A stretch of 64,000 nucleotides of DNA from Telopea speciosissima (Eukaryota > Streptophyta > Magnoliopsida > Proteales > Proteaceae). A program made the position numbers and the translations under genes. Of this stretch, positions 50,662 to 55,455 are shown in pieces. The notes under the pieces were generated by a model. The model was not told the DNA's origin. It saw only the letters and a list, made by a program, of their open reading frames with translations, and ran no database searches. The first letter of the stretch is position 1. Every line of letters begins with the position of its first letter. The stretch lies in NCBI RefSeq assembly GCF_018873765.1, contig NC_057925.1:42935010-42999009 (forward strand). The letters are read 5' to 3'.

Positions 50662-51405
50662 CTGTCAACATGGCAGCACTTCAAGCTTCAAGTTTCTCAA
50701 GGGCTTCATGGTCGTCTTCATCTTCTTCACGATGTCTAAGCAGCGGGACTGAAGCAATGATCCAAGCCCCTAAACTCCGGTCAAATAGACTCATACTCCC
50801 TAGGCTCCCCTCAAGAGATTTGGTGGAGGAATTGAAAATGAGAAGTGGATACAACAACACAACCACCACCACAACCATAACAGAATCAAAGCCTAGTACT
50901 GACACCACCACTAAAGATATTATTGAACGGCTAAATTCCAATTCCAAGGTGGTGGCCGAGCTTCACGCCGTTATCGAAGCAGCCGCAGACAGAGCAGAAA
51001 TGCACACCAACATTGGAGAGCATGCAGCGGAATAACTGGAACCACCTCATCCTCACCTCCATTAACGCTATCACCTTGTCCACCGTAACCATGGTTGGCC
51101 TGACAGCCACCACCTATGGAACGGGAGCAACTCTTTTAGCATTCAAGCTCTCCTCCACCCTCTTATATTCGACAGCCACTGGGAAGTTGGTGGTGATGAA
51201 CAAGATCCAGCCCTCCCAGCTCGCAGAAGAACAACAAAACGCAGTGGGGCTGTTCAAACAGCTCGAAAGGGAAATTCAAACAACCCTTGCAATCGGGACT
51301 CCCACAGCAAGGGATGTGAAGGATGCCATGGACAAGGTCTTGGCTATCAATAGGGCCTACCCTCTTCCCTTGCTTGGAACAATGTTAGACAAGTTCCCTG
51401 CGACG

Positions 51406-51673
51406 TAATAACGTGAATGTATTTCCTTGATTTCATTCCTCTCAATGGAGAGTTTATATACATAATACAAGAGATGAGATCCTAGTTATTCTAAACTAGG
51501 AATAGATTACAATAGAATTACAATCAAATATTGTGTTTCCCTATTCAAGGGATTGAGTCCTACAAGGTAAGATTTTATGATCACATGTGGAGATTGTGTT
51601 CTACAAGGTAGAATTCTGTGATCACATGTGGATGGCTGAGAAAGGAAAGGATATCAGTCGATATCTCTCAATA
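51406..51673 (-). repeat. 3' LTR of Copia G
   Basis: 268 bp, followed on the plus strand by CACCCCCTCAAGG, the complement of the polypurine tract. Confidence 0.88.
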
Positions 51674-51813
51674 CACCCCCTCAAGGTGGAGAATCGGTTG
51701 GCCGAATCTTCAACTTGTCCCTTAAGAAACTGAATCACATCAAACCAATTAAGTGGCTTAGTGAGTGTGTCTGCAAGCTGATCATGGGTAGAAATAAACT
51801 GAACCTGCAGCTG

Positions 51814-52044
51814 TCATTTGGACACACGATCACGAACAAAGTGGAAATCAATTTCCACGTGTTTGGTGCACACGTGAAACACAGGATTTGCAGACAAGTA
51901 GGTTGCTCCAATATTGTCACACCACAAGATCGGTGGTTCGGCCAGTGGACAACCCAGCTCATGCAAGAGAGATTCCAACCAGTCCAATTTGGCCGATGCA
52001 TCAACCAGGGCTTTATATTCAGCCTTAGTTGATGAACGGGCCAC
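51814..52044 (-). pseudogene. Copia G RNase H C-terminal part
   Basis: Continues the long frame of Copia G after a TAG stop near 52050 that replaces the usual Gln codon before RTVARSST. Motifs [15 protein letters not shown] ([11 protein letters not shown]), [17 protein letters not shown] and [15 protein letters not shown] are present, then a second in-frame stop. Confidence 0.75.
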
Positions 52045-54603: not shown

Positions 54604-54806
54604 GAGATGAGATCCTAGTTATTCTAAACTAGGAATAGATTGAAATAGAATTACAATCAAATATTGTGTTTCCCTATTCAAGGGATTGAGTCCTACAAGG
54701 TAAGATTTTATGATCATATGTGGAGATTGTGTTCTACAAGGTAGGATTCTGGGATCACATGTGGATGGCTGAGAAAGGAAAGGATATCAGTCGATATCTC
54801 TCAATA
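54539..54806 (-). repeat. 5' LTR of Copia G
   Basis: 268 bp, next to the PBS on the minus strand. Confidence 0.88.
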
Positions 54807-54856
54807 CACCCCCTCAAGGTGGAGAATCGGTTGGCCGAATCTTCAACTTGTCCCTG
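54807..54856 (-). other. Extra 50 bp of Copia G internal sequence outside its 5' LTR
   Basis: Matches 51674-51722 base for base for 49 bp: the polypurine tract and the last internal bases before the 3' LTR. Gene copy 4 resumes directly after it. It is therefore a terminal extension of the element, not host DNA. Confidence 0.8.
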
Positions 54857-55455
54857 TGACGGTAGAGCCTGCAAATTGGTGGCCACAACAATCGCAACAA
54901 AAAGGACTCGGTGGTGGTAATAGAGAAAGGAAGGGAAACAATGGATGGAATGCAAAGCTGGAGGAGGAAATGAGACAAATAGTTGGGGTGCTAAAGAGGA
55001 AGGACACCGAAGAGTATGTGAGGCTGAGTAATTTGGCGTTGAAAGTTAATAAGACCCTAGCGATTTCAGGGCCTCTGCTCACAGGCATTGCGGTGGTGGG
55101 ATCTGCCCTTGTAGGATCAGCTTCTCAGCATCAAGGGTCATGGGCAGTGTTTTTGGGAGTCACTGCGGGAGCCCTAGCAGCCATAGTGAACACAATGGAG
55201 CATGGTGGGCAAGTAGGGATGGTATTTGAGATGTACAGGATCAATGCTGGTTTCTTTCGGCTCATGGAGGAGTCCATTGTGTCCAACTTGAAGGAAAGGG
55301 AGGTGGAGAAGAGAGAAAATGGGGAGTTATTTGAAAAGAAGGTGGCTCTACAACTGGGAAGGAGTTTGTCCGAACTTAGGGATCTCACAACTTCTTCTTC
55401 TTCTTCTCAAAGATATGGAGAGACCACAGAAGAATTTGCCAGCAAGCTCTTCTGA

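Follow-up and report, generated by a model that had tools for sequence, protein, structure and literature searches.

How can an LTR retrotransposon come to carry, outside its 5' LTR, a piece of its own 3' internal sequence? The question is raised by a Copia element, here called G, in a 64,000-nt window of the Telopea speciosissima genome (NC_057925.1, 42,935,010 to 42,999,009), the whole stretch that was analyzed and to which all coordinates refer. G sits inside a host gene and occupies 51406-54855, extension included, on the minus strand, as do all its parts described below. It is a Ty1/Copia LTR retrotransposon, with paired LTRs, a primer binding site (PBS) after the 5' LTR and a polypurine tract (PPT) before the 3' LTR. 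LTR alignment placed the 5' LTR at 54539..54806 and, together with the relatives, the 3' LTR at 51406..51673 (268 nt each). The latter reads TATTG...TTATTA in sense and has a canonical outer end, i.e., the base that abuts the PBS in the 5' LTR, at the same position as in relatives. The PBS, TGGTATCAAGAGCC, was read at 54525..54538, abutting the 5' LTR, and the PPT, CTTGAGGGGGTG, lies directly before the 3' LTR (51674..51685), where relatives have the same or nearly the same tract. The two LTRs differ at 6 positions over 268 nt, which at a substitution rate of 1.3e-8 per site per year gives an insertion age of roughly 0.9 million years. An open frame (52051..54603) matches the profiles gag_pre-integrs, SH3_retrovirus, and RVT_2 (E 2.5e-70 for RVT_2, the other two being N-terminal to it); the profile search, at E up to 1, reported no match to the rve catalytic core. 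The Copia clade comprising G, two elements of a sister family in the window (E37, 32643-37552, and E12, 11714-15149), and their relatives has LTRs that end in TA...TA instead of the usual TG...CA, as TATTG...CAATA or TTATTA, and that abut the PBS.

The extension and the internal deletion

The extension (54807..54855) is identical at 49 of 49 positions to the 3' internal end of G (51674..51722), its source copy. It consists of the 12-nt PPT, including the TG in front of the LTR (sense CTTGAGGGGGTG), and of 37 nt from farther upstream. In sense orientation it ends in CTTGAGGGGGTG, the tract ahead of the LTR start TATTG. The claim of a reading made from the sequence only, that G carries 3' internal sequence outside its 5' LTR, is thus correct, with an extent of 49 bp, 37 of them beyond the PPT. 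BLAST recovered LTR and extension as one direct repeat of 317 nt (98.1% identity, E about 1e-156), which excludes a chance origin. Given the divergence of the LTRs, finding zero differences in 49 nt is unremarkable (probability 0.33). The right end of G is a normal U5, with TTATTA at the PBS border in the same position as in relatives. A repeat of AATACA 12 nt inside the LTR end hinted that the U5 end might be extended too; this is ruled out by relatives in which the ends are the same and the duplications are 5 bp long.

G also has an internal deletion, whose joint (54490..54496, a 7-nt overlap CTCTCCT) was located by comparison with two relatives, L058 and L059. Relative to L058, about 1.42 kb is missing between the leader and gag_pre-integrs, and the next 1269 nt are 92% identical; G thus lacks the gag and protease expected of an autonomous element. 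The deletion was not seen in the relatives examined, and among the 40 matches scored out of 479, none other reaches past the joint. As neither the extension nor the deletion was seen in these relatives, it is possible that both errors were made in one cDNA, during one cycle of reverse transcription; the deletion could also be older or later. If the RNA of G was already deleted, it must have used proteins from intact relatives.

The insertion site and its target duplication

The host gene, recognized by its match to profile PF14476, lies on the plus strand and is split by G into a first part (51013..51405, profile positions 21-146) and a second part (54856..55455, profile positions 147-320). 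The window contains five tandem copies of this PF14476 (petal formation-expressed) gene, at 10016-11595, 21645-23134, 29096-30958, 50664-55740, and 61011-62839. The fourth is the one interrupted by G; the longer stretches of the others are 83-91% alike to it, which makes them useful as empty-site references. The window also holds a 212-bp tandem duplication (41509-41720 and 41720-41931, 99.5% identical).

Aligning the junction with 51674-51722 and with the gene copies gave the 49/49 identity and, from the intact paralogs, the empty site. These paralogs read straight through at 22366 and 61499: GACAAGTTCCCTGCGACGGTAGAGCC. On the plus strand, the left flank of G ends TTCCCTGCGACG, and the right flank, after the ...CAACTTG of the extension, begins TCCCTGTGACGGTAGAGCC. 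Comparison of the flanks with the paralogs revealed a target duplication of at least 6 bp, GCGACG (51400-51405) on the 3' side of G and GTGACG (54856-54861) on its 5' side, and of at most 11 bp, TCCCTGCGACG (51395..51405) and TCCCTGTGACG (54851..54861), with one mismatch, a CpG-type C/T change. The duplication thus directly adjoins the extension, as the sequence-only reading had it. The range of 6-11 bp is due to TCCCT (sense AGGGA, 54851..54855), the final 5 nt of the extension, which are also present in the host: compared with the paralogs, this microhomology can be assigned to the extension or to the host duplication. Since the empty site is known from the paralogs and the target duplication is found on both sides, the junction of the extension is the original insertion junction.

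The duplication itself is irregular. All 14 other pairs of the family with both ends readable have a 5-bp duplication, as against the 6-11 bp of G, and we ascribe the deviation to this particular insertion rather than to the family. In the 23 family 3' ends that we read, the base before AGGGA is always A or G and never C, so the C at the junction of G is most simply host sequence. A plain 5-bp duplication would therefore need an extra change, a C at the first position of the extension. Most simply, then, at least 6 bp were duplicated, and the shared AGGGA has to be accounted for by a chance of 0.13%, the fraction of 1,399,673 placements (four host stretches against every seventh interior position) with a run of at least five shared bases. 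G thus combines a 5-nt microhomology of low chance probability (0.0013) with a non-standard duplication.

Other 5' ends in the genome

The extension was compared with the 5' ends of other elements in the same 823-Mb genome. In this family and its relatives, 54 outer 5' ends could be read, i.e., 41 pattern matches (34 including G, plus 7), 6 further pairs, 5 further ends, and those of E37 and E12. Only G is extended, and the other 53 lack the extension. Two of the 54 ends (L086 and L087) are preceded by the same sequence and appear to stem from a single insertion that was duplicated. The 49 bp are not part of the LTR; that other members might have them as true LTR sequence, which would have undone the sequence-only reading, is contradicted by all 53 ends. 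The lineage of extended elements that it had envisaged was not seen in the genome search either. None would be expected, because an extension of the 5' end lies outside the transcript.

The counts come from several searches. The exact pattern GGGGGTGTATTGA, 247 to 277 bases, TGGTATCAAGAGC matched once genome-wide, at G, and its reversed control never; this uniqueness applies to LTRs of about 253-283 nt for which GGGGGTG, TATTGA, and the PBS match exactly. Without the tract, the pattern gave 41 matches (control 0), and when the sequence upstream of all 41 was read, only G was preceded by its own 3' end; at 33 of the places other than G it was the upstream sequence that was read, not the duplication. 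One of these matches (L084) lies 13 nt ahead of the real LTR start. Two similarity searches were also made, one with LTR and 3' end (40 of 463 candidates scored) and one with PBS, LTR, and extension (40 of 479 scored). Among the 40 scored in the latter, G alone reaches from the PBS side into the extension; of the other matches on the PBS side, 15 go no farther than the LTR start and three break off within the LTR.

We read the junctions of 14 pairs: 13 have a canonical 5' start and a 5-bp duplication, and the last (C1a), with a truncated 5' LTR, was left out. The five 5' ends of L048 and L054-L057 are canonical as well, and L048, paired with L050, provides the fourteenth 5-bp duplication. A solo LTR (L053) has TGGGG on either side. 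Nine guessed sites of missing 5' LTRs yielded a complete LTR only at L048, a fragment at L047, and a 29-nt match at L044; no 5' LTR was found at the other six (L038, L039, L040, L042, L045, and L049). In E37 (duplication GTTAG) and E12 (GAGGG) the LTR start TATTG directly follows the 5-bp duplication, and the 105 nt upstream of them do not convincingly resemble the extension: of 500 shuffles, 52 and 75, respectively, scored as high.

One candidate for a second extended element, L072 (C5:28824133), was rejected: what lies upstream of it is the 3' end of another Copia, a decayed one. The 3' LTR of L072 is shortened, and beyond it the sequence picks up again with AGGGG-AGTGTTGAATG; its tract lacks the TG. 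We read L072, whose LTR start is related to that of G, as a nested insertion in the PPT of the decayed element (L095-L096), with an apparent duplication AGGGG; such an insertion is a decoy that mimics an extended 5' end. Elsewhere, three similar family 3' ends (L005, L007, and L008; C10 10.77-10.90 Mb) share a downstream flank within about 135 kb, apparently through local duplication of a segment; the places checked for their 5' LTRs held none. Beyond this genome, a collection of viral contigs gave no relative by protein and no match to an 18-base PPT-LTR pattern, and a collection of genome contigs gave one bacterial match to that pattern (L001), about the level of chance for so much DNA.

The start of the plus strand

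If plus-strand synthesis starts upstream of the PPT, U3 in the integrated DNA should be preceded by the PPT and internal sequence while the U5 end stays normal, and G shows both. This part of the sequence-only reading stands as the simplest source of the extension. The other part, a priming point fixed 49 nt upstream, does not, as AGGGA is common to extension and host and the end was probably trimmed. If, as we think, the overlong end was joined by microhomology repair, the position 49 nt upstream does not fix the true priming point. With a duplication other than 5 bp and AGGGA common to the host, the end of the cDNA may have been longer or shorter.

A candidate for the start exists nearby. 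The extension begins inside a PPT-like octamer, CTTAAGGG (51719..51726), the sole match of at least seven of eight letters to the PPT core CTTGAGGG in the 2856-nt interior. Its rank depends on the length of the core: at 10 letters it shares its rank with ten other sites among the best 12 listed, at 12 it falls below nine, and at 13 it is absent from the best 12 listed. Longer purine runs are present elsewhere in the interior of G. Had the purine run itself served as primer, a cDNA start beyond it would be expected, and a duplication of 10-11 bp would fit this better than one of 6 bp. Across the family, CTT[A/G]AGGG is found in 18 of 23 3' ends, with constant spacing in all 23, and a TTCTT stretch starts 55 nt before the LTR, again in all 23; to judge from the reading frame, the motif apparently belongs to the coding end of pol. 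Twelve of the 18 motif-bearing copies have a 5' end that could be read, and all twelve are normal. Hence, use of the PPT-like site, if real, must be rare.

One could go further and propose that the family keeps CTT[A/G]AGGG as a second, latent plus-strand primer, and that, when it is used, removal of its RNA leaves a single-stranded 3' tail, complementary to this primer, that anneals to AGGGA in the target. We give this idea little credence. If true, primer removal and choice of the joining site would be one linked step, which would account for the coincidence of the PPT-like site and the host microhomology in the same five bases.

Origin of the extended end

We hold, with moderate confidence, that G is a faulty cDNA that was integrated at one end and repaired at the other. 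The plus strand that was transferred would have begun upstream of the normal PPT, at or near the PPT-like CTTAAGGG, and the integrated DNA indeed has the PPT and 37 nt ahead of U3 on the left and a normal U5 on the right. The normal U5 end would have been joined by integrase, for which the overlong U3 end would have been an improper substrate. Host end joining probably attached this overlong end to the opposite side of the staggered target through AGGGA, with a 6-11 bp duplication as the outcome in place of the usual 5 bp of the family. Integrase action at the normal end and microhomology repair at the faulty one explain both the deviating duplication and the AGGGA match. It is possible, against this explanation, that a 6-bp duplication was made by ordinary integrase action. 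Since G is a single event, mechanism cannot be separated from accident.

Such ordinary action is what the sequence-only reading had proposed: the same overlong cDNA, with both ends joined by integrase at a stagger of 6 bp (or of 5 bp plus one changed base), the AGGGA being a coincidence. It agrees with the near-canonical duplication directly at both ends of G, and a duplication one base off, in this case too long, was reported at 1 of 15 XMRV sites in the available part of PMC2857682. Against it stand the 5-bp duplications of the 14 other pairs, the C before AGGGA that occurs in none of the 23 family 3' ends, and the 0.0013 chance of the 5-nt match; moreover, the joined end is not an LTR end, and LTR ends are presumably what integrase recognizes. 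As stated, ordinary integration after misprimed synthesis is not supported by the 6-11 bp duplication with AGGGA at the junction, and this picture probably does not hold; we regard it as unlikely.

Still less probable is an origin that needs no misprimed plus strand, in which a dimer, a concatemer, or an LTR-fused cDNA was broken or trimmed within the 3' end of its first unit and then end-joined. Ty1 is said to form tandem multimers when the length of its LTR is increased (Lauermann, 1997). Pieces of Ty1 cDNA are captured at yeast breaks with microhomology at the insertion junctions, according to the portion of PMC10802722 that was accessible. Yet a break placed uniformly over the interior would leave at most 49 nt in about 1.7% of cases (49 of about 2865), and the exact pattern, which is able to catch a tandem of internal end, LTR, and PBS, matched G alone.

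It is very improbable that G was a genomic tandem (LTR-int-LTR-int-LTR) in which a later deletion left 49 nt of the first unit. Tandem LTR arrays are described as abundant in plant genomes (PMC12786077, in the part available), but the deletion would have had to stop precisely at the edge of the host duplication, neither the LTR nor the family interior supplies the C at the joint, and a second coincidence would be needed for the match of AGGGA to the far host flank. The leftover of a deleted tandem element, which the sequence-only reading had named as a possible refutation, is thus unlikely, the junction lying exactly on the target duplication. Finally, the idea that the 49 bp belong to the true family LTR, or that G inserted into another family member, is refuted, even if a decoy of the latter kind, an element nested in the PPT of another Copia, exists in the genome: none of the 53 other 5' ends has the 49 bp, and both flanks of G are host gene, as in the paralogs.

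Comparison with known systems

Rous sarcoma virus has reportedly been studied with alternate polypurine tracts (Oh et al., 2006), an altered PPT being said to affect integration in vivo; unlike G, this is a virus in culture. A close likeness to G is seen in HIV-1 and MLV grown in cells deficient in break repair, where the available sections of PMC2797772 describe abnormal proviruses with wrong or missing host repeats. In Mre11-deficient cells, some of the 5' (U3-host) junctions retained pieces of the PPT, and microhomology to the host is marked at them, as in G. The differences are that those were cultured cells with a partial PPT, whereas G is a germline insertion of a plant Copia with the whole PPT and 37 nt beyond it, and that the three proviruses read at both ends, with repeats of 2-3 bp or none, were abnormal at the 3' (U5) end, which in G is normal. 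Junctions of HIV-1 2-LTR circles with a part of nef, env, or a reporter plus the PPT, ascribed to RNase H or priming errors and classed as mispriming (PMC5618025, accessible part), share with G the extra internal sequence and the PPT; the circles are unintegrated, whereas G is integrated.

One properly inserted end with the other joined abnormally has been assumed for HIV under integrase drugs or mutations, with non-standard duplications; as far as the text at hand goes (PMC5041404), integrase was impaired there, the duplications were usually much larger than in G, and the aberrant end was often truncated rather than extended. The excerpt of PMC2857682 also describes a defective U3 end in XMRV with a 273-bp duplication. 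In yeast, end joining captures Ty1 cDNA with microhomology and often with nucleotides found only in the cDNA (PMC10802722, same portion); this is LTR-retrotransposon cDNA as in G, here in pieces at an induced break with no integrase step. Plants have a microhomology end-joining pathway, according to the section seen of a plant review (PMC12786077). HIV proviruses with unequal LTRs were set aside as a precedent, the error proposed in the available part of PMC9278108 being a different one, template misalignment. Among the titles and abstract openings listed from the open-licence literature, no plant Copia insertion with an overlong U3 end was found.

Overlong U3 ends have so far been described from retroviral infections in culture, and within those same open-licence listings none as an inherited plant insertion. 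G is well explained as a known type of accident of reverse transcription and integration, here in the form of an inherited plant insertion and unique within what was searched. It is fully readable, with its empty site, its source copy, the usual 5-bp duplication of its family, and 53 other 5' ends in the same genome at hand. The combination of PPT, LTR, and PBS with an irregular duplication and microhomology provides a search signature with which the frequency of such insertions in plant genomes could be gauged. As G shows, a wrong end need not keep a plant Copia cDNA out of the germline, and the marks on G suggest that host end joining finished the insertion.
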